DNA of 64,000 bases from positions 1 through 64,000 of the forward strand of contig MVDH01000005.1 of NCBI GenBank assembly GCA_003056245.1, read 5' to 3'. The notes below the pieces were generated by a model. It saw nothing but the letters and a program-made list of their open reading frames with translations. It made no database searches and was not told the DNA's origin. Source of the stretch: Cellvibrio sp. 79 (GTDB lineage: Bacteria; Pseudomonadota; Gammaproteobacteria; Pseudomonadales; Cellvibrionaceae). This document shows positions 7,675 to 39,362 of this stretch, in pieces (positions within the stretch are counted from its first letter, which is position 1; each line of letters starts with the position of its first letter). The position numbers were made by a program, and so were the translations under genes.

Positions 7675-7890
7675 TTACCAATCAGACGGAATCTGCGGGT
7701 CATATAAATCCCCGGTTAAATTGTGCAATACGAGTTTGGGGTCTTTCGCTTTCTTTACCGGCGCATCGGTCCAGGGAACGACGTATAAAATGTTAGGCGC
7801 TTCTTTATTAAGATTGGTTTCTTCACTATCTGCCGCAAACGCAGCCATAGAAAATAACACTAAGACAAATCCGGTACGAATGACTTTCAT
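7675..7890 (-). CDS. Small exported protein at the end of the TPR operon
   Basis: This 71-residue protein has a clear signal peptide (MKVIRTGFVLVLFSMAAFA, cleavage after AFA) and a mature part of about 50 residues. That part contains ILYVVPWTDAPVKK and ends DLYDPQIPSDW. I have a recollection, not verified here, of VVPW-containing small exported proteins beside Agl/TPR clusters in related bacteria. A GAGG lies upstream of the ATG and the gene follows the 197-residue TPR lipoprotein by 11 bp, so it is the last member of that operon. It could be a periplasmic subunit of the envelope complex; the function is unknown. Confidence 0.7.
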   Translation of the reverse strand: MKVIRTGFVLVLFSMAAFAADSEETNLNKEAPNILYVVPWTDAPVKKAKDPKLVLHNLTGDLYDPQIPSDW

Positions 7891-7901
7891 CGATCAGTTC
7901 C

Positions 7902-8495
7902 TCACTTTAACTTGCGTTTTAATTCTGCAACCCAGGCCTCGGTATCCGGGTCCGCATTATTAATCAATGCAAGGTAGCGTTCGTAATGTTTAATCGCATT
8001 GGCGATATTTTGGTAATAAACATCATTAAGCAACGCCATATTGTAATGGGCATTGGCCAGATTTGGATTGAGTTCAAGTGCGCGGGAATAATGTTTCTCC
8101 GCTGTTTTATAGGCACCACTTTCTACATCAATTAAACCCAGCAAGTTTTCCAGTGTTGCCGACTGCGGTTCCAATTGAATTGCATTAGCAGCAGATTGTT
8201 TCGCCTGGGTAATATCGTTAGTTCTCAGTTGTGCCAATGCCAGATTGGCCCAGCCATCGACAAAGCCGGGATTGCCAGTCACAATTTTATTTAAATTGCT
8301 GCTCGCCTGAGCATATTCTTTTGCTTCCAGATTTTTGAGTGCGCTGACGTAATCGCCGCGAAATTTTTCGTCGAGCGATGTCTTGCTGGTGGATTGGGCT
8401 ATACCGCGATCAGTAGTTGATGTTGAGCTGCAACCTGCTAATAGTAATGCGCCGCCCAATAGTGCTATGTGCAGAAAATTCAATGTTCGTTTCAT
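7902..8495 (-). CDS. TPR lipoprotein (Pal/PilF-like size)
   Basis: This 197-residue protein begins with a type II signal sequence ending LLAGC (lipobox) and therefore should be lipid-anchored. From about residue 45 it contains four TPR-like helical pairs, for example FVDGWANLALAQLRTNDITQA, then AIQLEPQSATLENLLGLIDVESG, then ALELNPNLANAHYNMALLND. TPR lipoproteins of this size act as outer-membrane assembly scaffolds. The start overlaps the stop of the upstream 930-residue TPR gene by one base, implying coupled translation. Its most likely role is as the accessory TPR subunit of the Agl/Glt-like machine, by context. Confidence 0.8.
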   Translation of the reverse strand: MKRTLNFLHIALLGGALLLAGCSSTSTTDRGIAQSTSKTSLDEKFRGDYVSALKNLEAKEYAQASSNLNKIVTGNPGFVDGWANLALAQLRTNDITQAKQSAANAIQLEPQSATLENLLGLIDVESGAYKTAEKHYSRALELNPNLANAHYNMALLNDVYYQNIANAIKHYERYLALINNADPDTEAWVAELKRKLK

Positions 8496-11287
8496 TACTT
8501 AACACCTCCTTCACGATAAACATCTGCTTTACCTGCTCGGGCATAGCGCGAAGGAAACAGCGTTTTTAATGCGTTAAAACTTTCTTTAATCCATTTGCTT
8601 TCGGTACCGTCCGCGCTGCGGGCGATATTAATTTCATGGAACTCAATGGCTTTCTCTTCGAAAGGAAAGGCTTGGTCTTCAAGCAGGATATCGTACTGTT
8701 CCAATTCTTCCGGCGATAAATTGGCGGGGCGTTCGGAAGTTAACAATGCTTTGGAAAAATGCTGGTAAATATCGCCAATAGCGTAGGCAGATTCTGTAGT
8801 AATGGTCGCCACGCGATAAGAAGATGCTTCGCCATATAAATTAATAGCTTCTTGCATAAATTGTTTCTTCTCACGCAACCGCTGCGTCAACGGTTCGCGT
8901 AATTGCACACCAGCAAATTTTGCCTGTTTTGCACTGGCTAACGCCAATGCTGCTTGCGCAGCAATAAAATTAGTACGATCCGTCTTATAGTTGACGATGG
9001 TTTTTTTATCAGTGCTAAGAATTTTTTCCCGCCAGCTATCCACCGATTTGCCATCGCGTTTTTTACTGTATAACTCCACCAGCTTATTCATCGATTCCAT
9101 ATATTGTGGATAGGGGGAGGTATAAGTATTCGCGTAACTCACATAGGCGCGGATAGCATCATCCAGTTTGTCTTTTGTTTCGTAAAGTTCGGCAGCTTGC
9201 CACAGTGCCGCCATTTGTACGGATTTGTCGGAATCTTGCGCCGAAATTTTTTCAAACACCAATGCCGCGCGGTCGCTTTGTCCGAGTTTTAAATAAACAT
9301 TGGATAGCTGCCGCGTCGCATCCTTGTAATTAGGATGTGATGCATAAAGTTTCTGGAAAAGTTCAATCGTTGCAGCAGCTGTAGGCCAGAGTTCATTAGC
9401 AATTGAAAGATTAATCGCCTCGTAAAGTGCATCGGCCGCGATGCTGGCTTTAGGCAACTGCTGTGCAATACGCACGTACTGCGCAATTGCTTTATCTTTA
9501 TTTTGCGCATTCAGCTCATCTTTACCTTGCTGGTAGATAGCCAATGCCTGGGCTTCCTGAAATTTGGTACGTGCTTCCGTTGCTGTTGCTTGCTTCGCAA
9601 GCTCAATTAAAATACTTTCTGCATCTACTGCGCGATTTAATTTTAACAACGCCAGCGCCTTGATATAACTCGCTTCCGTCTGTGTGGATTTTGACAAGTT
9701 GCTACTCAAGGTGTTCGTCAGGTTGAGGACATCCTCATAGCGCTGGTTTTTGTAAGCAAGCTCCACTGCATGCAGGCTGACTTTTTGATATCGATCTTCA
9801 GTCGCGTACAAGCGCGCAGACTGCGCCGAATAGGCCAAATGTTTTTCCAGCCATTTTTTATTGTTAGGCTCTGCTCTGTACAGCTTATCGGTGAGATCAA
9901 TCGTTGCGTAAGCTGCATCTTTATCCAGCAAAATTTCACCATCGTAAGCGGCTTTTTCAAATAGCGCGAGCGCTTCAGCATTGTCCCCGCGTGCGGCGAG
10001 TAATTCGCCGTAAGCGATATACACTTTGTCCTGGCGAGCATGCACAGAATAATGGGACAAATAACGCTTATACCATTTCTCGGCTTGCGCCAAATTGCTT
10101 GCCTGTTTAGTGCGGCGATAGGCACTTTGCTGTGCGTCCGCAACTAATAAAATATTATCGCGCATGGAATCTTTTACGTGCTGATAACTGGCGGTCGCTT
10201 TGCGCGAATTCCAGAAAGTGCTTTCCAGATTATAGGATTGATAAAAAGATTCCATCGCTACTGTGTATTGCTCTACCTGTTCCGAGATACGCAAAATAGT
10301 AATGGTTTGCAAAAGCGCATCGGGTACTTCCGTTGCGTCAGGGTAGGTTTTGATAAATTGATGCATTACCTGATTCGCTTGCGCATAACGTTTTTCCATG
10401 ACTTGTAAATTGGAAATCATCAGGTAGGTTTGATAAATATAAGGTTGTTGTTCGGGCTCGTTAAAAAAATCATTGAGTGATGCCAGATCCGGCAAATTTT
10501 TAGCCGCTAAGGCAAGCGCGCGGAAATACTCATTAAAGTCACCCTTATCTTTATCCGAAAGACTGGCTTCGTTACCAAATTTGCGATGTTTGATCGCCAG
10601 GGAAAAATCTTCAATTGCTTCCGGGTTCAGGCCTTGCTTATAGCGCGACCAGCCGCGCTTCGTTAATGCCTGTTCGTAAAGTGGATGTGCTTCGCCAGCA
10701 AAAATAACTTCTGAATAAGCAGTTTCAGCACTCAGGTAATCTTCAGTAATAAATGCATACTCACCAATACGAAACTGCGCTTCCGGGTAATGTACCGATT
10801 GGGGAAATTGTTCTGTTAATCGGCGCAATACCGCCAGAGATTCTTCATCGCGGCCGAGCTTGTCATAATTTTGCGCGAGCTTGTAAAGTATTAAATCGTT
10901 GTCCTTTGCATCGGGGTATTCTTCCAACGCTTTATTAAATAAATCGATGGTATTTTGCAGGCTGGCTACTTGTGCGGTGTCTGCAACGCCTTGTTGGGAT
11001 GTGTCCTGGTTATCTTCCAAATCCTTGAGTTTTTTCATTTCCAATTCGGCCAGACGACCCATGGCTGCACGACGGCCCTTTTCTTCACTACCTGCGGTAC
11101 GCAAATAGCTGTCATAAGCTTGCCGGACTTCTTCTTCAGATTTAGGTTTAACAAAAACCGGAGCCTGGCCAACCTGGGATGATTGCATATCCAGATCGCG
11201 CAAGGTTGCCTCTTGCTCTACTTGCGTGCTGCAACCTGTGAGCAAATAACCCGAGAGGCACAATAATGAGAGAGTGTAATTACGCAT
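8495..11287 (-). CDS. Large TPR lipoprotein, Agl/Glt-like
   Basis: This 930-residue protein opens with a lipobox (YLLTGC) and is almost entirely TPR/helical-hairpin solenoid. Segments such as ILYKLAQNYDKLGRDEESLAVLRRL and YEQALTKRGWSRYKQGLNPEAIEDFSLAI give a repeat period of about 34-36 residues. Its closest recognisable relatives are the long TPR proteins found beside TolQR/ExbBD-type motors in Agl-Glt and other envelope systems. This likeness is in architecture, not a proven orthology. It follows the 432-residue TPR gene by 9 bp and couples to the 197-residue lipoprotein. Periplasmic, outer-membrane-anchored, probable scaffold. Confidence 0.75.
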   Translation of the reverse strand: MRNYTLSLLCLSGYLLTGCSTQVEQEATLRDLDMQSSQVGQAPVFVKPKSEEEVRQAYDSYLRTAGSEEKGRRAAMGRLAELEMKKLKDLEDNQDTSQQGVADTAQVASLQNTIDLFNKALEEYPDAKDNDLILYKLAQNYDKLGRDEESLAVLRRLTEQFPQSVHYPEAQFRIGEYAFITEDYLSAETAYSEVIFAGEAHPLYEQALTKRGWSRYKQGLNPEAIEDFSLAIKHRKFGNEASLSDKDKGDFNEYFRALALAAKNLPDLASLNDFFNEPEQQPYIYQTYLMISNLQVMEKRYAQANQVMHQFIKTYPDATEVPDALLQTITILRISEQVEQYTVAMESFYQSYNLESTFWNSRKATASYQHVKDSMRDNILLVADAQQSAYRRTKQASNLAQAEKWYKRYLSHYSVHARQDKVYIAYGELLAARGDNAEALALFEKAAYDGEILLDKDAAYATIDLTDKLYRAEPNNKKWLEKHLAYSAQSARLYATEDRYQKVSLHAVELAYKNQRYEDVLNLTNTLSSNLSKSTQTEASYIKALALLKLNRAVDAESILIELAKQATATEARTKFQEAQALAIYQQGKDELNAQNKDKAIAQYVRIAQQLPKASIAADALYEAINLSIANELWPTAAATIELFQKLYASHPNYKDATRQLSNVYLKLGQSDRAALVFEKISAQDSDKSVQMAALWQAAELYETKDKLDDAIRAYVSYANTYTSPYPQYMESMNKLVELYSKKRDGKSVDSWREKILSTDKKTIVNYKTDRTNFIAAQAALALASAKQAKFAGVQLREPLTQRLREKKQFMQEAINLYGEASSYRVATITTESAYAIGDIYQHFSKALLTSERPANLSPEELEQYDILLEDQAFPFEEKAIEFHEINIARSADGTESKWIKESFNALKTLFPSRYARAGKADVYREGGVK

Positions 11288-11296
11288 AACAATCCG

Positions 11297-12595
11297 TTAT
11301 TTATGATCGTACAATGAGGCCAGGCCAAAACGGGATTGACTTAAATAGCTGTCAATTGCATTTTTTTCTTCGCGCAAAAATTCGCTGACGCGTTGGCCGG
11401 ATTCCGTGTTGAACTTACTTTTCAGGTTGGTAATTTGCGGCGTTGGACTAAGCCCGTCCAGCAATGCTATTTTGATGGCATTATTGCGCAGTAATTTATC
11501 GTTGCTATGGTCCGGTCGCAAGAAATGTATTGATGTTGAATTGTTTGCTTGTGCTGCAATGTCGGAGGAAAGTTTTTGGTAGTAATCAATCGCTTCTTCA
11601 TAGCGGCCAGTAGCCGCATCAAATTGTTCTAATTGGCGTAGTGTAAACGCGGATAATAAATAAGCTTCGGCAACTGAAATATCCCGTTGCGGTTGTGCGC
11701 GCAACTTATCGAAAGCATTGAGTGCACCGATAAAATCCTGCTGGTGCAATGCTGCAACTCCAAGGCCTAACAATGCGCGTTGAGCATACTCACTGGATAT
11801 CGCCACATTGCGGAAACTTTCTCGCGCATCGCGATAAAAACCAAACTGGATCTGTGAATATCCCAACATGGTGAATAAACGATAATCCAATGCATCGCGC
11901 TTATTTTTATTTTCTTTCAATGCAGTATTAATAGCGGCGTGGGCATCAGTCCACCACTCTTGCCGTAAATTAGCAGACGCGAGATTCAATTGCGCCACAC
12001 GAAAATGCTTTGAATTCGCAGAAATTTTTTCATAAATTCGTAATGCTTCACGGTGTTTTTTTTGCTTTTGCAACGCAGTGCCCTGCAATACGTAAGCTTC
12101 TGTCCGGTCATCCGCTACGAGTTGTTCAAAAAGTGAAATATCGCTTAGTAATGTTGTAACCTTGGGCCAGTGTTCGTTGGCTGCATAAAAACGGGCTAAC
12201 TCAAAGGTGAGTCGGGCTTCAGCAATAGTATTTGCTTGCTGTTGGGCTTCAAGCAATAATTGTTCAACCAATGCATGGCCATAAACTTGCAACGCCAGGC
12301 GCACCAGAGGTTGAATTTCCGGATCATTCAAATAAGCTGCATTAAGAACATTGTTGTTTGCCAGGATTTGCAATGCACCGGCGTAATCTTTTGCCTGGTA
12401 AGCTTTTTCCGTTTGCCGGCGAACATCTGCCAGGTTCGCATTGGTTGCGGATTTGGCAAAACTATTATAAGTGGTGGAGATAACGCGCCCTAACTCATCG
12501 TCGAGATTCGCAGGTGCGGGCGATGCTGCCCACGTCGTGAACGAAAGCATCAACAAGAGTGCACAAATGCTCCTTAAGGGAAAATAACTGGCCAT
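11297..12595 (-). CDS. TPR-containing periplasmic protein
   Basis: This 432-residue protein begins with a Sec-like signal peptide (YFPLRSICALLLMLSFTTWA, AxA-type end at TWAAS). Helical TPR-like repeats follow, for example AYQAKDYAGALQILANNNVL and FRVAQLNLASANLRQEWWTDA. The start at 12595 is chosen because it puts the signal peptide at the N-terminus. A longer frame to 12706 would overlap the clpV end and the terminator. It is the first gene of the leftward TPR operon (432, 930, 197, 71 residues). It is likely to contact the outer-membrane TPR lipoprotein. Not a recognised T6SS component. Confidence 0.75.
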   Translation of the reverse strand: MASYFPLRSICALLLMLSFTTWAASPAPANLDDELGRVISTTYNSFAKSATNANLADVRRQTEKAYQAKDYAGALQILANNNVLNAAYLNDPEIQPLVRLALQVYGHALVEQLLLEAQQQANTIAEARLTFELARFYAANEHWPKVTTLLSDISLFEQLVADDRTEAYVLQGTALQKQKKHREALRIYEKISANSKHFRVAQLNLASANLRQEWWTDAHAAINTALKENKNKRDALDYRLFTMLGYSQIQFGFYRDARESFRNVAISSEYAQRALLGLGVAALHQQDFIGALNAFDKLRAQPQRDISVAEAYLLSAFTLRQLEQFDAATGRYEEAIDYYQKLSSDIAAQANNSTSIHFLRPDHSNDKLLRNNAIKIALLDGLSPTPQITNLKSKFNTESGQRVSEFLREEKNAIDSYLSQSRFGLASLYDHK

Positions 12596-12616
12596 GTTTA
12601 CGTTGATCTTTAAAGT

Positions 12617-12654
12617 TAAAAATAAAATTCCCCTGACCGAAGGGCCAGGGGAAT
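12617..12654 (-). terminator. Rho-independent terminator after tssH
   Basis: Read on the minus strand, ATTCCCCTG and CAGGGGAAT form the stem of a hairpin, with a CTTCGG loop. A TTTTATTTTT tract follows. It separates the T6SS operon from the TPR operon, so the TPR genes need their own promoter or readthrough. Confidence 0.75.
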
Positions 12655-12659
12655 AACTA

Positions 12660-15323
12660 TCAGGCAATGCTATAAGTGAAATGCCCGTCTTCGGTGGCAC
12701 CGACATGAATTTTCTGAATGTCGATTCCGTTAGCCATTTTTGCCAGACACTCTGCCGCTAATGTTGGCAACAATGTGCGTGTCAAAATATTTTCGATATT
12801 GCGCGCACCGGTATCCACTTCCTGGCTGCGAGCCAGAATATGCAATAGCACTTCTTCATCGTAAGTAAATTCCGCGTTGTAATGTTCTTTCACGCGTTTC
12901 TTAATACGATTCATGTTGATCAGGCAGATCTTCATTAAATCCTCATCACCTAATGGATAATAAGGAATAACAGTCGTGCGGCCGATAAACGCCGGTTTGA
13001 AATAACGCAGTAATTGCGGGCGGAAATTATCGAGCAATACTTCAGGGTCCGGACGGGTTTCCTGCGCAGCGCACATTGCGCGGATATGTTCTTCTGCCGC
13101 GTTGGAGGTCATGATGATGACAGTATTGCGGAAGTCGATATCGCGCCCTTCACCATCTTTAATCGTGCCTTTATCGAACAAGTTATAAAACACATCCTGA
13201 ACACCGGGGTGCGCTTTTTCCATTTCATCCAGCAGGACAACACTGTAAGGCTTTCTGCGTACGGCTTCAGTTAACACACCGCCTTCACCGTAACCTACAT
13301 AACCCGGTGGTGAACCCAACAGCATGGAAACTTTATGTTCTTCTTTAAATTCCGACATGTTGATGACAGTAATATTTTGCTCACCGCCATACAAAATATC
13401 AGCGAGCGCAAGGGCAGTTTCGGTTTTACCGACACCACTTGATCCCACCATAAAAAATACACCGATAGGTTTGCGGGGATCGGTTAAACCGGCGCGCGAT
13501 GTGCGAATACTTTGCGCAATCGCTTCCAGTGCATGTGGTTGACCAATTACACGTTGGCCTAATACATCCTGCAATTCCAGAATGGCTTTAATTTCATTCG
13601 ATACCATTTTGCCGACCGGAATGCCGGTCCAATTCGCAACAACTTCCGCAATTGCCTGACCATCAACATCAACATTAATGAGTGGGCTTTCACCTTGTAA
13701 TTGTGCGAGTTGATCGCGCAAGCTGCTCAGCTGTGTACGCAAATCGTCAAGTTCGGTTTGCAATTCTGCAGCGGCTTCGGGAGCTTGCTGTTGTTGGAAA
13801 ATTCGTTCGATTTTTTGTTGCAGCTCCTGGATTGCCGCAACATTCTTTTTCTCTGCTTCCCATTGCGCTTCCTGTGTCTCGAGCAACTTTTGCAAATCAA
13901 TTTTTTGTTGCTCCAGCAATTCAATTTTTTGCGCGTAATTGCCGTGACTGGCATTTTCACGCGCAAGTGATTCTATAGTGGAGTTGCTTTGGGTAATTTG
14001 ACGGCGAGTGTCTTCAATTGCCGATGGTGTTGAACTCTGGCTGAGCGCGACGCGTGCGCACGCGGTATCCAGCAAGCTAACGGATTTATCGGGCAGTTGA
14101 CGCGCGGTAATGTAACGACTGGATAATTTAACCGATTCGACAATCGCTTCATCCAGAATACGAACCTTATGATGTCTTTCCAGCATTGCCGAAACAGCGC
14201 GCATCATATTGATAGCTTTTTCTTCATCCGGCTCTTCAATTTTAACGACCTGGAAGCGGCGAGTTAATGCCGGATCGCGTTCAAAATATTTTTTATACTC
14301 AGCCCAGGTTGTTGCAGCGATTGTGCGTAATTCGCCGCGGGCCAATGCAGGTTTAAGTAAGTTAGCGGCATCACCCTGGCCTTCTTTACCGCCGGCACCA
14401 ATAAGGGTGTGCGCTTCATCGATAAACATAATGATGGGTTCAGGTGATGCTTTTACTTCTGCGATTACCGATTTAAGACGATTTTCAAATTCACCTTTCA
14501 CGCTCGCACCGGCTTGCAACAAGCCCAGGTCCAGGCTGCGAATCGTTACATTTTTTAATTGGTCGGGAACATCGCCCGATGCAATACGCAATGCAAAACC
14601 TTCCACAACGGCAGTCTTGCCTACACCAGCTTCACCCGTCAGGATCGGGTTGTTTTGGCGGCGGCGGATAAGGATGTCGACAATTTGCCTGACTTCTTCA
14701 TCACGGCCCAACACCGCATCAATTTTTCCATTTTTAGCGGCCTCAGTGAGGTTCACTGTAAATTTGTCGAGCGCCGGTGTTGAACTGGGAACAGCACTGA
14801 CTTCGCCAGTGTTATTACCATTGTCTTGTACGCTGGTTGATTTCGATTCAGCGGTTGTTCCTACCAGTGCGCGAACCAAATCGCGCAAAGATTCCGGTGC
14901 AATTTTTTTCAATTCGCCATTGGTGATTTCGGTAGCGCGGCGCAATCCATCATCAAGCATTAACGCCGCAAGAATATGAGCCGAGGTAATTCTGGGGTAG
15001 CCGTATTCCACGCTCGCCAGAACCCATGCATTTTTGGCCAGGTCTACAATCGTGGGCGATAACGCAGGTGCACGGGTGTTGCCACCTTTGATTGCATCCA
15101 GTTCGCGATTCAAGTGCCTTACCAGATTGCCCAGGTTAATTTCATATTTGGTCAACACCGCCTGAATATCACTGTCAGGAATTTCTAATAGTTTTATTAG
15201 CCAGTGCTCGATTTCCACGTTGTAATGTGTACGTGATAAACATAACCCGGCTGCACCTTCCAACGCGTTGCGGCAAGGTTCATTCAGTTTGGTAACCAGT
15301 GATTTGAGATCGATGCTGATCAT
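12660..15323 (-). CDS. tssH: T6SS sheath-recycling AAA+ ATPase ClpV
   Basis: ClpV disassembles contracted TssB/TssC sheath. The 887-residue protein has an N-terminal Clp_N-type repeat domain. NBD1 carries Walker A GEAGVGKTAVVEG near residue 230 and Walker B IIMFIDEAH. A coiled-coil M domain (EKIELLEQQKIDLQKLLETQEAQ) leads to NBD2 with GSSGVGKTETALALAD near residue 625. The ClpV subgroup is indicated by its place at the end of the tssA-G operon and by the long N-domain. It is last in the leftward operon and is followed by a strong terminator. Both nucleotide-binding sites look intact. Confidence 0.95.
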   Translation of the reverse strand: MISIDLKSLVTKLNEPCRNALEGAAGLCLSRTHYNVEIEHWLIKLLEIPDSDIQAVLTKYEINLGNLVRHLNRELDAIKGGNTRAPALSPTIVDLAKNAWVLASVEYGYPRITSAHILAALMLDDGLRRATEITNGELKKIAPESLRDLVRALVGTTAESKSTSVQDNGNNTGEVSAVPSSTPALDKFTVNLTEAAKNGKIDAVLGRDEEVRQIVDILIRRRQNNPILTGEAGVGKTAVVEGFALRIASGDVPDQLKNVTIRSLDLGLLQAGASVKGEFENRLKSVIAEVKASPEPIIMFIDEAHTLIGAGGKEGQGDAANLLKPALARGELRTIAATTWAEYKKYFERDPALTRRFQVVKIEEPDEEKAINMMRAVSAMLERHHKVRILDEAIVESVKLSSRYITARQLPDKSVSLLDTACARVALSQSSTPSAIEDTRRQITQSNSTIESLARENASHGNYAQKIELLEQQKIDLQKLLETQEAQWEAEKKNVAAIQELQQKIERIFQQQQAPEAAAELQTELDDLRTQLSSLRDQLAQLQGESPLINVDVDGQAIAEVVANWTGIPVGKMVSNEIKAILELQDVLGQRVIGQPHALEAIAQSIRTSRAGLTDPRKPIGVFFMVGSSGVGKTETALALADILYGGEQNITVINMSEFKEEHKVSMLLGSPPGYVGYGEGGVLTEAVRRKPYSVVLLDEMEKAHPGVQDVFYNLFDKGTIKDGEGRDIDFRNTVIIMTSNAAEEHIRAMCAAQETRPDPEVLLDNFRPQLLRYFKPAFIGRTTVIPYYPLGDEDLMKICLINMNRIKKRVKEHYNAEFTYDEEVLLHILARSQEVDTGARNIENILTRTLLPTLAAECLAKMANGIDIQKIHVGATEDGHFTYSIA

Positions 15324-15374
15324 TCTTCAATCCTTAGTGAGAGAGTGAACTGATAGTAAGAGCGCCAAGGGAAA

Positions 15375-18770: not shown

Positions 18771-18789
18771 AAACCTGTTTCCATACCCA

Positions 18790-20325: not shown

Positions 20326-20336
20326 TACCAAGTGAA

Positions 20337-20364: not shown

Positions 20365-20446
20365 AAGTTGATCAACGATTTACAAAATCCAATCGGCGTG
20401 CATGTGTGGAATATACGCCGCAGAAACCAGCGTATATCCCCGGCGA

Positions 20447-21937: not shown

Positions 21938-21942
21938 AATGA

Positions 21943-22452: not shown

Positions 22453-22484
22453 AATCCCTAATCCTCTCTGGCTAGGTGGTTAAA

Positions 22485-26169: not shown

Positions 26170-26205
26170 ATTTGGGTTTCCACCCAAGGAATTTACGAGA
26201 AGCCT

Positions 26206-27540: not shown

Positions 27541-27598
27541 CACTAACCCCTGGTTTTTTTAACTGACAGCAGATCCCTTCGGGTACATGTAAATAATT

Positions 27599-28492: not shown

Positions 28493-28571
28493 GTGTTGAT
28501 TCGCTCATAAAATGATGGATCAGCTCCTTCTTAACAGGCAGAGCTTTAGACTCAATTGGTAATCAGGATTT

Positions 28572-32126: not shown

Positions 32127-32127
32127 A

Positions 32128-32850
32128 ATGATCAAAGCCAATGATGTGGGACTATTCGGGAAATTACCTGCCCATGGCGATTTTATTTACCGCGATCTCC
32201 CCAGTCATTTCATTAATGCCTGGGACACCTGGTTGCAAGGGTTTGTCGCCAGCTCCCAACAGCAATTGGGTGAAGCTTGGCTGGATATTTACTTAACCAG
32301 TCCGATTTGGCGATTTGCGATATCGGATGGGGTGATTGATGGTCTGTCATGGGCGGGAATACTGCTGCCGAGCGTCGATCGTGTCGGCCGTTATTTTCCA
32401 TTTTCAATAGCGACCAAAATACCAGCGACTGCCAATCCGTTTTTAATTATCCAGCAACAAGCCTGGTTTGATGCCATTGAACAATTGGCATTGTCTGCAT
32501 TATCGGGACACATGCAGTTAGAAGAATTGGTGCAGGAAATCAACAAGCACAATGTGGCTTTGCCTCCGGCAATTCAGCGTTATGCCCCATCACTCGAAAA
32601 CGCAGGCGTCGTGGCCGAGTTCGCTAGCGAAACTGCTAATCCTGAACTTGCTTATGCCCATTTGCTGGATAGCCAATGTCGCCAGGCGTATTCAAATTAT
32701 TCGATCTGGTCAACAGCGATGGGATCAGAAAAAATTAATCCCTGCGTATTTTATACCCGCGGCTTGCCGAACTTTCGGAGCGCCGCCGCCATGTTAGATG
32801 GGCAATGGGCCCAGTGGGGCTGGCATCAACCCATACAGGCTTTGCCATAA
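32128..32850 (+). CDS. tagF: T6SS regulator TagF
   Basis: TagF (240 residues) is a post-translational repressor of T6SS firing in Pseudomonas. The N-terminus VGLFGKLPAHGDFIYRDLP is diagnostic. It is followed by SPIWRFAISDGVIDG and SVDRVGRYFPFSIA, all typical. It follows tssM by one base and precedes pppA by 22 bp, so the regulatory genes are expressed with the membrane complex. It fits with the kinase/phosphatase pair that follows. Confidence 0.93.
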   Translation: MIKANDVGLFGKLPAHGDFIYRDLPSHFINAWDTWLQGFVASSQQQLGEAWLDIYLTSPIWRFAISDGVIDGLSWAGILLPSVDRVGRYFPFSIATKIPATANPFLIIQQQAWFDAIEQLALSALSGHMQLEELVQEINKHNVALPPAIQRYAPSLENAGVVAEFASETANPELAYAHLLDSQCRQAYSNYSIWSTAMGSEKINPCVFYTRGLPNFRSAAAMLDGQWAQWGWHQPIQALP

Positions 32851-32872
32851 TTTTTTATTAAGTGGTTTGCGG

Positions 32873-33649
32873 ATGACAGATATAACTTTTAGACGCCCTA
32901 TTTCCTGGGATAGCAGCCTGTTGACTGATGTTGGCTGCGTGCGCGCTGTTAATGAAGACGCTGTGCTCGCACGGCCGGATATTGGTTTGTGGGCAGTAGC
33001 CGACGGTATGGGCGGCCATAAAGTAGGCGATATAGCGAGTAGCAAAATAGTTGCCGCATTGGATGTAATCAAAGATTGCCAGCGTCTCAGCGAATGCGTG
33101 CAGGTTATTGAAGATTGCTTGCTCGATGTTAACCAACTCATGCTGGAATATGCCCAAATCATGTTTGATGGTGGCACTATGGGAAGCACAGTAGTCGCTG
33201 CTGTTATTAAAGGGCGCATAGGGGCCTGCCTATGGGTCGGCGATTCGCGGTTATATCGTTTTCGCAACCAAAAACTTGTGCAGATAACGCGTGACCACAG
33301 CCAACTTGAAGAAATGATCGCCATGGGTCTCATTACGCGGGCGGACAGTGAAAATCATCCAAACCGTAACGTAATTACCCGTGCAGTGGGCGTAGAACCC
33401 CAACTCTATGTCGATATGACTCTTTTTACTACCCAGGTTGGCGATACATTTTTATTATGCAGCGATGGGCTTTACAATGCGCTCTCGGAAGAGCAATTGA
33501 TCCAAAACCTGAATCTGCGTGATGTGCAGCAATGTGCCCAGAAACTAATGAACCAGGCATTGGAAAATGGTGCGCGCGATAATGTTTCAGTTATTGTGGT
33601 GAAAGGGAATCCTGGCAAAGTCCCAACCAGTGAAATCGCTCAGGGATAG
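32873..33649 (+). CDS. pppA: T6SS PP2C-type serine/threonine phosphatase PppA
   Basis: This 258-residue PP2C-type phosphatase should reverse PpkA phosphorylation. Conserved elements are VGCVRAVNEDAVL, WAVADGMGGHKVGD (metal-binding Asp-Gly-Met-Gly-Gly), GSTVVAAVI, LWVGDSRLYRFR and GARDNVSVIVVK at the C-terminus. A longer frame starting at 32798 would overlap tagF by 53 bp and is less likely. It lies between tagF and ppkA, the expected place for the kinase/phosphatase switch. Confidence 0.93.
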   Translation: MTDITFRRPISWDSSLLTDVGCVRAVNEDAVLARPDIGLWAVADGMGGHKVGDIASSKIVAALDVIKDCQRLSECVQVIEDCLLDVNQLMLEYAQIMFDGGTMGSTVVAAVIKGRIGACLWVGDSRLYRFRNQKLVQITRDHSQLEEMIAMGLITRADSENHPNRNVITRAVGVEPQLYVDMTLFTTQVGDTFLLCSDGLYNALSEEQLIQNLNLRDVQQCAQKLMNQALENGARDNVSVIVVKGNPGKVPTSEIAQG

Positions 33650-33673
33650 ATAAAAAATTTTCGAGGATAAGTA

Positions 33674-36262
33674 ATGAACGACACTGGTGATAATGACAAG
33701 ACGCATTTCAAACCGCGCGAATCCAATCGCGTGCCGGAAAATAATAGCGATGCAACACGGGTTGCCCCTCAAGGCGCATTGGCTAAAGCCCAGCAAGCTG
33801 CTGCTCCGGCTAAAAACCCCGGCGATGCATTGAATAGCGAGTTTCCAGATAAAACCCGCTTTGTTCCCAAACAAAACCCGGCGACTGCCAAAACAGAAAT
33901 TAAATCCGACGTCACACGCGTAAACTCCCGTATTCCTGCCAAGCCAGGTGCAGAAGCAAAGGATCCTTCGTTATTGAAAGGTCGTTTTATCCTGGAAGAT
34001 CTCCTGGGTGCCGGGGGCATGGGAGTTGTTTACAAAGCAAAAGACCTGCTCAAGATCGAAGCGCAGGATCGTGACCCCTATGTTGCAATCAAAGTATTAA
34101 CGGATGAATTTAAAGCCCATCCGGAAGCGTTTATTGCGTTGCAACGTGAATCGCGTAAAACCCAGCGGATTGCCCACCCCAATATCGTGACCGTTTTTGA
34201 CTTCGACCGGGACGGCGACACCGTTTTTATGACCATGGAATACCTTGACGGTAAACCATTGGATAAATTGATCAACCAATACCGCTCAATGGGGTTGCCG
34301 GCTGATGAAGTGTTCAAAATATTGGAGGGCATTAGTGCTGCCCTGATCTATGCGCACGGACAAAATATTATTCACTCGGATTTCAAACCGGGGAACATTT
34401 TTGTCAGCAATAAAGGCGTTGCCAAAGTAATTGATTTTGGTATCGCACGCGCTGTTGCCAAAGTTGAACATCGCGAAGAAAGCCTCGATGATAAAACGGT
34501 ATTTGATGCGGGCAATCTCGGCGCATTGACTCCGGCTTATGCAAGTCTGGAGATGCTTGAGGGTAAATCGCCGGATGTACGCGATGATATTTATGCACTG
34601 GGGTGTATTGCGTATGAACTTTATACCGGTGTTCACCCGTTCAATCGTGTGCATGCTGATGAAGCGAAACGACAAAAACTCAAACCCAAACGTATTCAGG
34701 AATTAAAAAAGCATCAATGGCGTGCCATTGAAAAAGCACTGGCATTTGAACGCGAAGATCGTATTCAATCAGTCGAATTATTCTGGGAAGAATTCTCACG
34801 CAAACAAAAAAGTTATTGGGGCAGTATATTAATAAGTCTGCTGATCTTAGGTGCTGCTGCCGGTGCTTACTATCAATTTAAACCTGAACCGGTACAAACC
34901 GTGTCTGAAGATCAGGTTCGCAGTGAAATCGAAAAGAAATTGCGCATGGAAATGATTCAGAAAACACTGGCTGAATTACAACAACAACCTAATTTTTCTC
35001 CCGAATGGGAGGCGCTGCTGTGGCAAACCATTCAAGAGTCACGGCAACTTCTTGGTACGGCAGATACTTGGCTCAATTCCCAGGAAGTCATCTTTTTTGA
35101 GCTTTATCTGGGGAAAATAAAAACTGCTATTGAAACCGATGATTTGGTTAATGCTGAATTGTGGATTGTTAATGCAAAACGCTATACGCAAGATAATCAA
35201 AAACTGGATGAGCTCTCTAACAGTCTGGCACTCGCAAAAGAAAATCAACGGAAACGGGAATTGGAGCTCGCACAGCAAAAAGCAGCGCAAGCTGCGGATC
35301 AGGAGCGACTCCAGCAAGCACGCCAGGAGCAACAGCAAAAAGATGCGGTAGTAGTTCGCCAAAATGCAGATTTTGATACTGCCCTGGAAAATGTAAATCG
35401 GCAGCTTGCGTGCAAAAGCACCATTGATATGCGCGATCTTGAAATTGCCATCACCAAATTACGCTCACTTAATATGACGCGCTATCAAAAAGAAGAAGGC
35501 AATATTGTTGTATCCCTTGCCGGATGTATTCAAAAACTGGGCGCGACCTTCCCTGACAGGGCTGAAGTGATAAAACGGCAGGCTTTGCGCTTGTTCCCCG
35601 CAAATGGTTTATTGGAAAAAATTGTTATTGCCGCGCGCGATCCATGCAGCTCAACACTGGCTGGCCTTGGTTCACGAGGAATGGGAAGTACTTGCCGCGA
35701 TAAATTAACGGGTGCTACCAAAGCCCCGGCGCTTGTTGTTGTGCCAGCAAAAGGAAGTATCAAATCGTTTGCGATTGGTAAATTTGAAATTTCTGTTGAT
35801 GAAATGAATGAGTTTTGCCGTCAAACCAGCCAATGCTCTTTAACGGGAGATGCTAGTTCACCCGCTACGAATATTTCGGCGGCCAATATTACCGCTTATC
35901 TGAAATGGCTAACGGATAAATCCGGGCACCAGTATCGCTTACCTACATTGGCGGAATGGCAGTATGCGGCAAAGGCGACCAGCGCAACAACCGACCCAAA
36001 CCGCAATTGCAAGTTAAATTCGCGCGGAATACAAAAAGGAAATGCGCTCAATAAAATCACATTGGGTCAGCAGAACTCCTGGGGGCTTGTTAATTATTTA
36101 GGCAATGCACGTGAACTGGTCATGGACCCCGGCGGTCGCTATCTGGCAGTGGGTGGCTCTTATGATACTGAGATGGCGGAATGCAGTTTCAATAATCAAA
36201 TAACACACGCTGGCAGTGCTGACCAATTCACTGGATTTAGAGTCATTAGAACTCTGCAATAG
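33674..36262 (+). CDS. ppkA: T6SS serine/threonine kinase PpkA fused to a SUMF1/FGE-like domain
   Basis: This 862-residue protein has a Hanks-type kinase domain (about 104-375): glycine loop GAGGMGVVYKAK, VAIK Lys140, catalytic HSDFKPGN with Asp236, and DFG at 254-256. The activation segment holds DKTVF at Thr275. A 90-residue N-terminal tail repeats D-x-T motifs at Thr10, Thr28, Thr61 and Thr81. A membrane segment (GSILISLLILGAAAGAYYQF, 383-402) is followed by a Gln-rich coiled region. The last 170 residues resemble an FGE/SUMF1 (formylglycine-generating enzyme-like) fold (MNEFCRQTSQCSL, YRLPTLAEWQYAAKA, LGNARELVMDPGGRYLAVGGSY, GFRVIRTL). The usual PpkA VWA domain is not seen. Whether the SUMF1-like part is catalytic or a binding module is open. 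Confidence 0.92.
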   Translation: MNDTGDNDKTHFKPRESNRVPENNSDATRVAPQGALAKAQQAAAPAKNPGDALNSEFPDKTRFVPKQNPATAKTEIKSDVTRVNSRIPAKPGAEAKDPSLLKGRFILEDLLGAGGMGVVYKAKDLLKIEAQDRDPYVAIKVLTDEFKAHPEAFIALQRESRKTQRIAHPNIVTVFDFDRDGDTVFMTMEYLDGKPLDKLINQYRSMGLPADEVFKILEGISAALIYAHGQNIIHSDFKPGNIFVSNKGVAKVIDFGIARAVAKVEHREESLDDKTVFDAGNLGALTPAYASLEMLEGKSPDVRDDIYALGCIAYELYTGVHPFNRVHADEAKRQKLKPKRIQELKKHQWRAIEKALAFEREDRIQSVELFWEEFSRKQKSYWGSILISLLILGAAAGAYYQFKPEPVQTVSEDQVRSEIEKKLRMEMIQKTLAELQQQPNFSPEWEALLWQTIQESRQLLGTADTWLNSQEVIFFELYLGKIKTAIETDDLVNAELWIVNAKRYTQDNQKLDELSNSLALAKENQRKRELELAQQKAAQAADQERLQQARQEQQQKDAVVVRQNADFDTALENVNRQLACKSTIDMRDLEIAITKLRSLNMTRYQKEEGNIVVSLAGCIQKLGATFPDRAEVIKRQALRLFPANGLLEKIVIAARDPCSSTLAGLGSRGMGSTCRDKLTGATKAPALVVVPAKGSIKSFAIGKFEISVDEMNEFCRQTSQCSLTGDASSPATNISAANITAYLKWLTDKSGHQYRLPTLAEWQYAAKATSATTDPNRNCKLNSRGIQKGNALNKITLGQQNSWGLVNYLGNARELVMDPGGRYLAVGGSYDTEMAECSFNNQITHAGSADQFTGFRVIRTLQ

Positions 36263-36283
36263 TGCCTATTCGAGGAATGTAAA

Positions 36284-36460
36284 GTGGAACAAGATTACAC
36301 AGAAGCCGTCAAGAAATTGGTGCGGCAATATTATGAACACGAAATCACATTGGATGCTTACAGGCGCGATCGCAAACGTTTGATTGACCAAATGGATCTT
36401 GAGTTTAATGGCCATGAATTTATTAATATAAGTGCGATAACCCAGGTACCACAAAACTAA
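36284..36460 (+). CDS. Small unknown protein after ppkA
   Basis: This is a 58-residue frame starting with GTG. GAGGAA lies 7 nt upstream, which is a good ribosome site. The product is helical and charged (YTEAVKKLVRQYYEHE, YRRDRKRLIDQMDLEFNG). It has no signal or membrane segment and should be cytosolic. It follows ppkA by 21 bp on the same strand and could be the last member of the T6SS operon. I do not recognise it. The helix pattern suggests a SHOCT-like or short adaptor fold; function is unknown. Confidence 0.6.
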   Translation: MEQDYTEAVKKLVRQYYEHEITLDAYRRDRKRLIDQMDLEFNGHEFINISAITQVPQN

Positions 36461-36565
36461 AGCAATCGTATGAAACGTTAATGAAGTGTTCTTCCTGCCT
36501 TGATGGTTTGTCCGCTATCTGCGCTAACACTGATACATTCGTAAACAATACATTTAACAATCACT

Positions 36566-36599
36566 TTAAGTGCTCATTTAATATCAAATGAGCACTTAA
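36566..36599. promoter_or_regulatory. Palindrome between the T6SS and the ExbBD operon
   Basis: TTAAGTGCTCATTT and AAATGAGCACTTAA are perfect 14-bp arms with a 6-bp centre. No T tract follows on either strand, so it is more an operator or symmetric regulatory site than a terminator. It lies 40 bp before the ExbB-like gene. Confidence 0.65.
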
Positions 36600-36639
36600 T
36601 ATGAGTATTAATTTATAAAGAAAGGGATGGAAATTTGCT

Positions 36640-37305
36640 ATGAATATGACAGAAATTATTCGCTTTATGCAGGATGGAGGCGTTTTTATGTTTCCTATCG
36701 GCATTATTCTTGTAGTGGGTTTGGCAATTGTTGTTGAGCGTTTTGTTTTTCTTGGCAAGGCTAAAAAATTAAATGCGAGCGCATTTGACCCAATCTTAAA
36801 TGCGTTGCAAAAACGCGATTACCAAAGTGCAGTTAATATTAGTAAATCTTCCGAGGCATCTGTTGCGCGTATCATTAATGCCGGTTTGGCACGCATGGCA
36901 CATTCAAACCGCAGGGAAGATATTGAATCGGCGATGGAAGAAGGCGTTATGGAAGCCATCCCCCGTCTGGAACGCCGTACCGGTTATTTGGCAACGCTTG
37001 CTAACATTGCGACCTTGCTTGGATTACTTGGAACCATTCACGGTTTGAGTTCTGCGTTTTCCGCAGTAGCGAACGCAGACCCATCAGAAAAAGCCGCTTT
37101 GCTTTCCGCCAGTATTGCTGTTGCGATGAACGCTACTGCATTTGGTTTGTTTACTGCAATTCCATTGTTATTGGCCCACTCAATGATTCAAAGTCGCACG
37201 CTGGAAATTATCGATAGCCTCGAAATGGCGGGCGTAAAATGTTTGAACATTATTACCAATGCGCAAGATTCGATTGCACGGCAACGTGTGGAACCTAAAC
37301 AATAA
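36640..37305 (+). CDS. MotA/TolQ/ExbB-type proton-channel subunit
   Basis: This 221-residue TolQ/ExbB/MotA-type protein has three membrane segments: GGVFMFPIGIILVVGLAIVV, then LANIATLLGLLGTIHGLSSAF, then MNATAFGLFTAIPLLLAHS. The GTIHGL and ATAFGLFTAIP segments are family hallmarks of the proton-channel lining. It would form an ion-driven motor with the following two ExbD proteins. The arrangement of one ExbB, two ExbD and one AgmX/TonB-like gene matches the AglRQS-type motor. It starts 40 bp after a palindromic site. The start is the ATG at 36640; a second Met two residues later is also possible. Confidence 0.88.
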   Translation: MNMTEIIRFMQDGGVFMFPIGIILVVGLAIVVERFVFLGKAKKLNASAFDPILNALQKRDYQSAVNISKSSEASVARIINAGLARMAHSNRREDIESAMEEGVMEAIPRLERRTGYLATLANIATLLGLLGTIHGLSSAFSAVANADPSEKAALLSASIAVAMNATAFGLFTAIPLLLAHSMIQSRTLEIIDSLEMAGVKCLNIITNAQDSIARQRVEPKQ

Positions 37306-37328
37306 TCGGAATTTAAGGAACGCCATAA

Positions 37329-37877
37329 ATGCGCCGATTATCCAAACGCAACAGTGAAGAAGCTGATGTTGATGTAACGTCATTCATCAATCTCGTCATT
37401 GTGCTGGTACCTGTCTTATTAATGGGCATGGTTCTATCGCGAATTACAGTATTGGATTTAAAGCTGCCCGATATAGCCGTGAATTCAGCAGCACCGCAAA
37501 CTGAGCCTCCCGCACAATTAGAATTAATTGTGCGGGCTAACTACTTTGATATTAATTATCCAGCAGGAATAAATCTGAAACGGCTCAATAAAACTGCAGC
37601 TGGGAATTATGATTACGCAAATCTCACGTTGCATCTTCAGGAAATAAAACGCCAGTTGGGTGAAAAAGGTATAGAGAAGCGCGATATTTATTTGCTATCA
37701 GAAAAAAATGTCGATTACCAAACATTGGTACAAGTGATGGATACCGTCCGTTCATATCGGACGGTAGTTGCTACGTCCGTGGTAAATGCGGAATTGTTCC
37801 CCGAAGTATCCCTTGGTGATGCCCCACCAGAAGGCGAACAAACATTGGCGCTACCACCAGCAACGGGAGCACAATGA
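37329..37877 (+). CDS. ExbD/TolR-type protein with Asn in place of the channel Asp
   Basis: This 182-residue protein is a single-membrane-span ExbD/TolR homologue, with a periplasmic domain after about residue 45. The membrane segment is DVTSFINLVIVLVPVLLMG. The position that holds the essential proton-carrying Asp in ExbD and TolR is Asn21 here. The codon is AAT, read directly. In the partner encoded next the same position is Asp31. It therefore probably cannot carry protons alone and may be structural. It overlaps the next gene by 4 bp (ATGA) and is in one operon with ExbB. The loss might be functional asymmetry, as proposed for other two-ExbD motors, but that is inference. Confidence 0.85.
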   Translation: MRRLSKRNSEEADVDVTSFINLVIVLVPVLLMGMVLSRITVLDLKLPDIAVNSAAPQTEPPAQLELIVRANYFDINYPAGINLKRLNKTAAGNYDYANLTLHLQEIKRQLGEKGIEKRDIYLLSEKNVDYQTLVQVMDTVRSYRTVVATSVVNAELFPEVSLGDAPPEGEQTLALPPATGAQ

Positions 37878-38413
37878 TGAAAAAATCCCATCGCGCAAAA
37901 CGGATGAACAGGCACCATGGTCGCCTGAACTTCGTACCCAAATTGAATTTGGTACCGCTCATAGATTGCTTTGTTTTGTTGATATTTTTTCTACTTATTA
38001 ATTATTCAACTGAAGTAGAAGTTTTGCAGACTGACAAAACAGTAAAATTACCCGCATCCATATCGGAAACATCACCCAAAGAAAATCTCGTGGTTGTGGT
38101 AAACGCCAGTGAAATTCTGGTGCTGGGGCGAAGTGTCGGCGGTATAAGCGATATGATGGCCGGAAATGGCGATACGTTTGAACCCTTGATAACGGAATTA
38201 AAATATCTTGCCAGCAAAGCGCCAGCCTTGACTGAAAAGGAACTGGCAGAAGGCAGGGCGGTTACTGTTCTGGGTGATCGTGCAATTCCTTATGCGCAGT
38301 TAAAAAAAATCATGGCTAGTTGTGTTGCCGCTGGTTATCGCAACATTTCTCTGGCGGTGCTGCATAAAGAAGCCAGCAACTCTATAGTAGGGGGCCAGGA
38401 TGTCCGCCATTGA
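37874..38413 (+). CDS. ExbD/TolR-type protein with intact channel Asp
   Basis: This 179-residue protein starts with a strongly basic cytosolic tail (KKSHRAKRMNRHHGR). Its membrane segment NLVPLIDCFVLLIFFLLINY holds the canonical Asp31 needed for proton use. The periplasmic part follows. It is coupled to the previous gene by a 4-bp overlap and to the next by a 14-bp overlap. With ExbB it should form the active channel. The C-terminal domain is short, as usual for TolR/ExbD. Confidence 0.88.
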   Translation: MMKKSHRAKRMNRHHGRLNFVPKLNLVPLIDCFVLLIFFLLINYSTEVEVLQTDKTVKLPASISETSPKENLVVVVNASEILVLGRSVGGISDMMAGNGDTFEPLITELKYLASKAPALTEKELAEGRAVTVLGDRAIPYAQLKKIMASCVAAGYRNISLAVLHKEASNSIVGGQDVRH

Positions 38414-39362
38414 TGTTTCAGTATTGCAATTACCATGGGCAACGAGTGATAGTGATCAGCAATTTAAAAAGATTGTGCTGGGTTTTTTATTACTATTTTT
38501 CTGTATTGCATTACCAGTCTCCTACGTCACTTTGCCAGAATTAACCCGGGCAGAAAAAGAAGCGTTGCCACCTCAGTTGGCCCGCGTTGTTCTCGAGCAA
38601 AAGCTAATACCACCACAACCGGTAGTGCCACCTAAAATAGAAGAAAAGCCGGAAGTAGAAAAAACTCCGGAGAAGACCAATGAAGAAAAAAATACAACAA
38701 CGCCTGCTGAAACAAAACCGGTAACACCTGATACGTCAAAAACCAGCAAAAGTGATTCGACGGAAAGAGCGAGGAGTGTGGCAAAACAAAGCGGTATATT
38801 AGCCATGGCTAATGAACTGAACGAATTGCAAAACACAGATGCAATTACAGAAAATGTACGGACCACTGTTACAGCAACAAAAAATGAGGCGGCAACGCAC
38901 AACGTTAGTGAGGTAATCACCGCGTCGAACCAACAAGGTAAGGTCATCCAGCAAGATGATGTTGTAGGACAACTGCAATCCACCGATTTGCAAACAAGAG
39001 AAGCCCGGACACAAACGGCTGCAACTGAAAAAGCTGTAGTGGCGGATAACAATTTGCGGCAAGGTAAAGGTGGCGGCCGGGCATCATCTGACATTAGTTT
39101 GGTATTCAATAAAAATAAGGCGAGTTTGCATTCAATCTACGAGCGGGAACGTAGAAAAAATACTAGCTTGAAAGGAAAAATCGTTTTTCAATTAACGATT
39201 GAGCCAAATGGAAAAGTAAGCAGTGTTAAAATTTTATCCAGCGAACTTAATAATCCGGAGCTGGAAAACCGAATTATCACACGGATTAAAATGTTTATTT
39301 TTGCTCCAACATCTGATGGCACTATAACAATAGATTACCCGGTAGAATTTATTCCTTCCTAA
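38400..39362 (+). CDS. AgmX/TonB-like protein
   Basis: This 320-residue protein has a cytosolic N-terminus and a membrane span (IVLGFLLLFFCIALPVSYV). A long Pro/Lys/Glu/Thr-rich periplasmic linker (PPQPVVPPKIEEKPEVEKT) resembles TonB. The C-terminal domain (SIYERERRKNTSLKGKIVFQ, then TIEPNGKVSSVKILSSEL, then NPELENRIITRIK) fits the AgmX/PglI C-terminal/TonB-like fold. It should transmit ExbBD energy across the periplasm to outer-membrane partners, plausibly the TPR lipoproteins at 8-12 kb. It is the last gene of the operon. Confidence 0.85.
   Translation: MSAIDVSVLQLPWATSDSDQQFKKIVLGFLLLFFCIALPVSYVTLPELTRAEKEALPPQLARVVLEQKLIPPQPVVPPKIEEKPEVEKTPEKTNEEKNTTTPAETKPVTPDTSKTSKSDSTERARSVAKQSGILAMANELNELQNTDAITENVRTTVTATKNEAATHNVSEVITASNQQGKVIQQDDVVGQLQSTDLQTREARTQTAATEKAVVADNNLRQGKGGGRASSDISLVFNKNKASLHSIYERERRKNTSLKGKIVFQLTIEPNGKVSSVKILSSELNNPELENRIITRIKMFIFAPTSDGTITIDYPVEFIPS

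Follow-up and report, generated by a model that had tools for sequence, protein, structure and literature searches.

A type VI secretion system nested between the halves of a predicted Agl/Glt-type core-complex paralogue in Cellvibrionaceae

Why should a complete type VI secretion system (T6SS) lie inside what looks like a second envelope machine? The question is posed by a 64,000-nucleotide stretch of the Cellvibrio sp. 79 genome (assembly GCA_003056245.1, contig MVDH01000005.1, positions 1 to 64,000; hereafter the window), in which positions 7675 to 39362 hold a T6SS flanked on one side by three TPR proteins and a small exported protein of 71 residues (p71), and on the other by ExbB, two ExbD proteins and an AgmX/TonB-like protein. 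An earlier note, made from the letters of the window alone, had described this layout and compared the flanking genes to the part list of an AglRQS/Glt-type motor; it suggested that the two systems might form a joint envelope machine or share regulation. Here we describe the nested locus and its relatives in the host family, and weigh what the arrangement could mean.

A T6SS at an internal junction of a duplicated operon

Pfam scans of the window's reading frames, with NCBIfam models added for the flanking genes, recovered the layout just described, including the TPR proteins and the small exported protein on one side and the ExbB, ExbD and AgmX-like proteins on the other. The T6SS is complete, contains the core set tssA–C, tssE–H and tssJ–M, and consists of two divergent gene runs. 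The minus-strand run (23612 to 12660) carries tssA, B, C, C′, E, F, G and H (ClpV), and the same strand continues past tssH into the three TPR genes (12706 to 7902) and then p71 (7890 to 7675). The plus-strand run (23967 to 36262) carries fha, tssJ, K, L, M, tagF, pppA and ppkA, and continues past ppkA into exbB, exbD1, exbD2 and the agmX/TonB-like gene. Frames and strands confirm that the flanking genes are complete and point away from the T6SS: each half prolongs the direction of the tss run that it adjoins, with about 24 kb of T6SS between them.

The same genome holds a second copy of the flanking genes on contig C9, contiguous and on one strand, in the order TPR3′-TPR2′-TPR1′-small open reading frame (ORF)-exbB′-exbD1′-exbD2′-agmX′. 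Together with 19 further loci from the family it makes up our stand-alone set; most of these loci were chosen for nearby TPR2 and exbB matches, and their contiguity is partly a product of that choice. The order TPR2, TPR1, exbB, exbD1, exbD2, agmX holds in all 20, and in each the gene immediately before TPR2 is a TPR3 relative (blastp with the window TPR3 found five of these relatives, and a hidden Markov model (HMM) seeded with those five found all 20). When 7578 ORFs were searched with an HMM of 30 T6SS-linked p71 sequences, the matches at E ≤ 1 were the short ORFs that separate TPR1 from exbB, found in 20/20 stand-alone loci (E 5e-14 to 0.0027), and no others. The T6SS thus occupies precisely the p71|exbB boundary of the duplicate.

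The published core complex consists of GltC, GltD, GltE, GltG, AglR, AglQ, AglS and one extra gene; its genes lie in one region in all non-Deltaproteobacteria and in Geobacter, its gammaproteobacterial form is described as of unknown function, and duplications are noted for Teredinibacter and Saccharophagus (Luciano 2011, PMC3169522). Judged by sequence and gene order, the eight flanking genes are a predicted duplicate of this gammaproteobacterial Agl/Glt core complex, split four and four at p71|exbB. One ExbB with two ExbD proteins fits the AglR/Q/S-like channel at the family level, and NF033768 identifies a GltG-like transducer (the GltG equivalog itself gave 43 bits against a cut-off of 650). 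The three TPR proteins (GltC, GltD, GltE) and the small gene fit through their same-order counterparts in all 20 stand-alone loci, and p71 would be the one additional core-complex gene. The stand-alone paralogue occupies one contiguous region; the nested copy does not. The part list proposed in the earlier note thus holds for both halves taken together, as the unsplit paralogue and the 19 other stand-alone loci show. A gliding motor as such is unsupported: the NCBIfam models for GltE, GltG and GltJ all fall far under their cut-offs, and among the group A gliding genes (GltA, B, F, H, I, J, K) solely the GltJ model matched any flanking gene (48 bits, cut-off 450). The nested module therefore shares with the published complex an AglR-like ExbB, two ExbD-like proteins, an AgmX/PglI transducer, three TPR proteins and a small gene, and differs from it in being split around a T6SS and in having an added gene for a 58-residue protein, described below.

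The core complex seems to have been duplicated more than once in the host family. Three deviating stand-alone operons (L089, L090 and L093) have TPR2 proteins of 1044, 1105 and 950 residues and an exbB product 51–55% identical to that of the window; in the exbB tree L089 and L090 pair, and L093 is a long branch elsewhere. At another stand-alone locus (L014, 16171–18194), unknown ORFs of 194 and 396 residues, with no Pfam match, lie upstream of TPR3.

The nested layout is conserved across genera of the host family

Our family sample comprised 144 genomes from 32 genera. TPR2 relatives occur in at least 127 of them (E ≤ 1e-10) and TssF in 92 (E ≤ 1e-20). Among the matches listed, TPR2 comes in two sorts, with 34–95% and about 27–31% identity to the window protein; the former, which is T6SS-linked, marks the nested layout best and occurs in 30 genomes from 14 genera, the window's included. 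These 30 were picked by TPR2 identity of at least 34%, not by linkage. TssF is present in every one, and in every one the TPR genes adjoin T6SS genes (in G031 the TPR contig ends within tssH). One outcome that the earlier note had set as refuting, TPR and ExbBD operons usually found apart from the T6SS, did not appear: T6SS-type TPR2 never occurs without a T6SS in the 30 genomes. The stand-alone operon is common without an adjoining T6SS, yet is a separate protein set.

The Exb half is held almost as firmly. In 28 of the 30 genomes exbB adjoins T6SS genes: the window, 24 others, and G006, G031 and G140, in which exbB was placed by position, 10–11 kb from tssK. In G050 the T6SS-type exbB lies on another contig, and in G030, a 79% complete genome, no T6SS-type exbB was found. 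A single fetched stretch contains TPR1–3, tssF, tssH, ppkA, exbB and both exbD genes at 23 loci, the window included, and since so many loci keep these genes together a chance layout is excluded; p71 is present in all 23 and agmX in 22 (the G142 stretch ends earlier). Rearrangements leave the association intact. In G006, tssJ and tssK are about 117 kb apart, and the TPR half and exbB each remain with their own T6SS end. In genus g31 (G140, G141 and G142) the TPR block is inverted and still adjacent, so that the TPR and Exb halves are collinear. In a metagenome-assembled genome (L016) the genes next to the TPR half are those for DUF6931, VgrG-like and Hcp proteins; that neighbourhood (13247–18309) also contains an ShlB/FhaC-like two-partner transporter beside the TPR half.

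Nested T6SSs share one origin. In a rapidly built TssF tree with 89 rows, a single change separates 29 nested from 60 un-nested sequences (Shimodaira–Hasegawa-like approximate likelihood ratio 100), and a more careful 49-row tree gives the same result (100/99); by these sequence trees the nested systems are one TssF clade. Both trees were built without G140, whose TssF is split, and the 89-row tree also lacks un-nested G103, G106, G107 and G108 and the weak partial matches G130, G058 and G107 (E 1e-21 to 1e-25). Both the TssF and the exbB trees carry long-branch warnings, mainly for un-nested and stand-alone rows. Within the nested loci TssF is 57–74% identical to that of the window (99% in G029). 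A recent insertion of the T6SS in one strain, which the earlier note had set as an outcome that would count against it, is ruled out by the gene order in other genomes and by the TssF tree, with 14 genera forming one TssF clade. T6SS-linked exbB likewise forms its own clade of 22 rows (100/98; G142, a 142-residue fragment, was left out of the tree), without the window and G029, and the protein is exactly 205 residues long in 20 of 23 cases, one of the remaining three being a fragment.

TPR2 also varies with the T6SS. For the 12 genomes from which both module types were fetched, T6SS-linked TPR2 distances correlate with those of TssF (r 0.75); after removal of the stand-alone TPR2 distances the partial r is 0.58, a value reached in 5 of 2000 permutations. 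T6SS-linked exbB, taken without the window, correlates most with T6SS-type TPR2 (r 0.82).

A natural exchange of motor parts in the window

The window and its near relative G029 depart from the T6SS-linked exbB clade in an informative way. Their exbB sequences fall inside the stand-alone clade, beside the copies of G000, G016 and G025 (100/100). By blastn, a plus-strand tract from the exbB start into agmX (36639–38650) has 72% DNA identity with contig C9 and was replaced from the stand-alone operon. Residues 1–70 of the window AgmX are 64% identical to its own stand-alone AgmX and 20–25% to eight T6SS-type proteins; residues 230–320 are 50–64% identical to the eight T6SS-type proteins and 39% to its own stand-alone AgmX (31–41% to seven stand-alone sequences). 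TPR2 of the window is 28% identical to its own paralogue, against the 34–95% found within the T6SS-type set. An origin of the whole module from the genome's own stand-alone operon is rejected on these comparisons, in which solely the stretch from exbB to the start of agmX is of stand-alone type.

As read from these identities, exbB, both exbD genes and the membrane end of AgmX were exchanged, and the periplasmic end of AgmX and the TPR half kept their T6SS type. The ExbBD channel and the AgmX membrane helix, which are expected to fit each other, were thus swapped as a unit. This suggests that the module was still selected as one machine when the exchange became fixed. It also marks ExbBD and the AgmX membrane helix as parts that look general, and the AgmX periplasmic end, the TPR proteins, p71 and the 58-residue protein as parts that look T6SS-specific, a division that tells experimenters where to look.

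Anatomy of the Exb half and a ninth gene

The plus-strand Exb half begins with exbB (36640–37305), which is AglR/TolQ-like by Pfam and 86% identical to the stand-alone copy. Compared with the Protein Data Bank (PDB) its product retrieved TolQ and ExbB, a generic result, and compared with plasmids just two Vibrio records at 39.5%. Pfam likewise identifies exbD1 (37329–37877) and exbD2 (37874–38413). The membrane-helix Asp of ExbD2 is present in 45/45 sequences; ExbD1 has Asn at the presumed counterpart column in 24 of 25 T6SS-linked sequences (one has Asp), the window's among them, and in 19 of 20 stand-alone sequences (one has Ser). Motors of the ExbB/ExbD type are pentamer:dimer assemblies (PMC12204202), and in Myxococcus the AglQ substitution D28N abolishes proton conductance (PMC3858216). 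By analogy, the natural reading is a 5:2 motor in which the two ExbD subunits differ. The last gene, agmX (38400–39362), encodes the chimaeric TonB-like transducer, whose C terminus matches the AgmX/PglI C-terminal domain model NF033768 (72 bits against a threshold of 40).

The 377-nucleotide spacing between ppkA and exbB contains a conserved gene that is absent from the ORF list of the window. This ORF of 58 codons (36284–36460, plus strand, GTG start), detected by HMM, has no visible signal and is probably cytoplasmic; its product matches no Pfam family above cut-off. Of 25 nested loci with ppkA and exbB on one contig, 24 have kin at the junction of these genes (the exception is G123), although the HMM was seeded from 13 of the 24, so that recovery there is not independent; the other 11 are independent. 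None was found in 20 loci of the stand-alone set or in 10 un-nested T6SSs (22,584 six-frame ORFs overall), and one extra match, in G134 (E 0.078), is at chance level. Since its gene sits between the T6SS kinase and the motor, the 58-residue protein would be the best candidate for a coupler of the two systems.

About 40 nucleotides upstream of exbB lies a perfect palindrome with 14-nucleotide arms and a 6-nucleotide centre (36566–36599); among 134 fetched loci an exact copy occurs in none apart from L009, which is the window itself. It may be an operator or a bidirectional hairpin.

The TPR half

All four genes of the TPR half lie on the minus strand. The p71 gene (7675–7890) encodes a product with a signal-peptide-like start and no Pfam or NCBIfam family match. 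TPR1 (7902–8495) has a lipobox-like signal and stands in the GltE-like position; Pfam assigns TPR repeats, and the NCBIfam GltE model gave 25.9 bits against a cut-off of 225. TPR2 (8495–11287), a TPR protein of 930 residues by Pfam, also has a lipobox-like signal, and its Cys19 is unchanged across 14 aligned T6SS-type sequences. TPR3 (11297–12706) is an exported TPR protein by Pfam and a signal-peptide-like stretch; with its listed start at 12706 it runs into tssH, and the signal-peptide-like start at about 12595 is probably the true one. The lipobox-like calls (TPR1, TPR2) and signal-peptide-like calls (TPR3, p71) were judged by eye, and a crude lipobox pattern fits 25 of 30 TPR1 and 26 of 32 TPR2 sequences, with start sites uncertain. 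A predicted structure of TPR2 from three sequences (mean predicted local distance difference test score 69.5, predicted template-modelling (TM) score 0.44) gave no lead: its best 50 PDB matches were TPR-type or other helical-repeat proteins that differ in function, and all had TM-scores below 0.3. By sequence, TPR2 retrieved YbgF, BamD and other TPR proteins from the PDB, again generic.

A probable dedicated motor and the alternatives

Taken together, the gene content and its conservation make it probable, in our judgement, that the eight genes encode a machine driven by proton motive force that spans the envelope, is a paralogue of the core complex and is dedicated to the T6SS it surrounds. 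In such a machine protons would pass through ExbB and the ExbD1/ExbD2 pair, as expected from the families, one ExbD having Asp and the other Asn. Proton flow would move the AgmX transmembrane helix, and the periplasmic C-terminal domain of AgmX would pull on the outer-membrane TPR lipoproteins TPR1 and TPR2 and on periplasmic TPR3 and p71. The force, or the tension that it meets, might act where the T6SS membrane complex crosses the peptidoglycan and outer membrane, and this state could be reported to the PpkA/PppA/Fha switch, perhaps via the 58-residue protein. The motor could in this way position, clear or trigger T6SS firing at sites of envelope contact. A mechanical and a sensory version of the role seem about equally likely: the sensory one is favoured because ppkA, pppA and the 58-residue gene adjoin, the mechanical one because the module's kin are force-transducing machines. 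The broader idea, that T6SSs of this kind form a class equipped with a proton-powered envelope motor, a duplicated core complex broken in two around the T6SS that exerts or senses envelope force and is coupled to PpkA/Fha by a small protein, is a close call that we would answer, if pressed, slightly in the negative.

Several observations weigh against a dedicated motor. As the nested loci descend from a single ancestor, their number does not represent as many independent gains, and in the sample the module is restricted to one family. A profile of T6SS-type TPR2, run against 390 genomes drawn from the order, matched 118 at E ≤ 1e-100; the host family accounts for 18 of these, the window included. 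Among the 100 matched genomes outside the family no T6SS-type TPR2 was found (at most 628 bits, against at least 1201 for five T6SS-type rows). In 80 of these 100, taken with preference for the higher-scoring ones, TssF was searched for; 39 have it, in none of them near a listed TPR2 match, the nearest being about 100 kb away (G477), with some assemblies fragmented. Co-variation is uneven: TPR1 distances track stand-alone TPR2 (r 0.63) over TssF (r 0.45), and T6SS-linked exbB, without the window, has r 0.70 with stand-alone exbB and 0.53 with TssF. Another way to read the motor exchange is that T6SS-type motor parts are dispensable or replaceable. A terminator-like hairpin between tssH and TPR3 (12627–12654, minus strand), weak as a signal given 9 such sites in the scanned region against 7.1 expected, and the gap between ppkA and exbB possibly oppose simple co-transcription. 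Finally, un-nested sister T6SSs that have no module also have a short TssL and often ppkA, so no T6SS part is visibly missing for the motor to replace.

Two narrower proposals fail on the same comparison with un-nested systems. Lack of a peptidoglycan anchor on TssL, for which the motor would substitute, does not set nested systems apart, as un-nested TssL is also short (273–307 residues in 8 of the 9 loci in which TssL was found; un-nested G027 is the sole long form, with 422 residues and an OmpA-like motif). Nor is PpkA a distinguishing feature of nested systems, being present in 6 of 10 listed un-nested neighbourhoods.

The strongest rival is that the T6SS and the duplicated core complex merely serve the same circumstance, such as cell contact or life on surfaces, with joint inheritance and expression and no contact between the two machines. 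Both are envelope machines, the stand-alone paralogues presumably function without a T6SS, there are possible transcription breaks after tssH and before exbB, and the halves keep their adjacency and not always their orientation, as in g31. Yet shared regulation gives no reason for the split around the T6SS or for its retention, and it sits poorly with a 58-residue gene confined to nested loci and with an AgmX periplasmic end that is still of T6SS type after replacement of the motor end. We consider it unlikely, though the most serious of the alternatives.

Historical accident, in which a T6SS jumped into a duplicated operon at p71|exbB and the layout has just been inherited, we regard as very improbable. 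The collinear TPR and Exb halves around the T6SS in g31 are exactly what insertion at that junction would give, and the TssF tree requires only one origin. Chance linkage, however, should decay at TssF identities of 57–74%, and the TPR half is present in 29/29 rows of the nested TssF clade, the layout having held in 14 genera despite a turned TPR block, exchanged motor genes and the 117-kb split in G006. Least probable of all is a plain Tol-Pal or TonB system that is there by happenstance: ExbB is TolQ/ExbB-like and the ExbD proteins are TolR/ExbD-like, but the matching TolQ, ExbB, TolR and ExbD equivalogs fall well short of their cut-offs, the AgmX/PglI domain exceeds its own, and two ExbD proteins, three TPR proteins and p71 in the order of 20/20 stand-alone loci fit the Glt/Agl core.

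Relation to known systems

The firing of T6SSs is usually explained by sheath contraction, with no envelope motor. In its core tss genes with fha, tagF, pppA and ppkA, the window's system is like the PpkA/PppA/Fha-regulated HSI-I of Pseudomonas aeruginosa, which to our knowledge has not been described with an Exb/AgmX/TPR module. Also comparable are the un-nested sister T6SSs of the family, which have the same tss genes and mostly a short TssL. At 7 of the 10 such loci fetched, the genes from fha to tssH make a single run (G027 and G124 depart from this, and G005 shows no fha side within 60 kb), and their listed neighbourhoods contain no matched Exb or TPR halves and no 58-residue gene.

The T6SS cluster of Teredinibacter turnerae spans TERTU_1639–1668, with fha at 1647 and ppkA at 1640 (PMC2699552), a numbering that would fit the window's gene run; the text of that genome paper names no ExbB or TonB. 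The passages of PMC3169522 on the core complex likewise make no link to a T6SS. A precedent for an exchangeable motor comes from Myxococcus, in which the Agl motor parts from Glt and engages Nfs, a paralogous complex (PMC3858216). As in the window, a paralogous output complex is served by an exchangeable Agl-type motor; there the exchange is of protein partners and in the window it is a gene replacement, and the Agl-Nfs task is spore coat assembly, with no T6SS named in the relevant passages of that paper.

Among the titles and abstract openings listed by searches of the open-access literature (subscription papers and preprints being outside this scope), none joins AgmX/AglRQS-type genes to a T6SS. 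The T6SS and the Agl/Glt core complex are each known; no description of their conserved union was found within that scope. The union supplies a concrete partner for an orphan core complex and raises the question of whether proton motive force acts on where or when a T6SS fires. As far as our literature searches reach, a dedicated motor would give the gammaproteobacterial core complex its first function, and no earlier case of a proton-driven accessory motor in a T6SS is known.

T6SS genes and neighbouring genes

The genes of the minus-strand run, all called by Pfam, are tssH (ClpV; 12660–15323), tssG (15375–16484), tssF (16448–18283, 723 bits), tssE (GPW_gp25; 18276–18770), a second tssC copy (VipB; 18790–20331), tssC (VipB; 20447–21937), tssB (VipA; 21943–22452) and tssA (ImpA_N; 22485–23612). 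The plus-strand run comprises, again by Pfam, fha (FHA and T6SS_FHA_C; 23967–25661), tssJ (25654–26169), tssK (26206–27540), a short tssL of 297 codons with DotU as the sole domain found (27599–28492), tssM (IcmF; 28572–32126), tagF (32128–32850), the phosphatase gene pppA (PP2C; 32798–33649) and the kinase gene ppkA (33674–36262), whose Pkinase domain is joined by a C-terminal FGE-sulfatase-like domain. The window tssF encodes the sole TssF of the 5.7-Mb genome. An Hcp gene lies at C11:77682, about 14 kb past the window's right end.

Directly adjoining the TPR half is a gene for a Fic-domain protein (6402–7622), preceded by an unknown ORF of 326 residues (5308–6288). Close to the contig start, ParA-like and ParB_C-domain proteins are encoded on the minus strand (3505–5084), possibly partition genes of a mobile element or a chromosomal pair. 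To the right of agmX lies a gene for a Reprolysin-like metalloprotease with beta/gamma-crystallin and CBM6 domains (40799–42004). Further on, a 1944-residue protein with DUF4011, AAA helicase and REase_MTES_1575 domains (51281–57115) resembles large defence-type helicase-nucleases.

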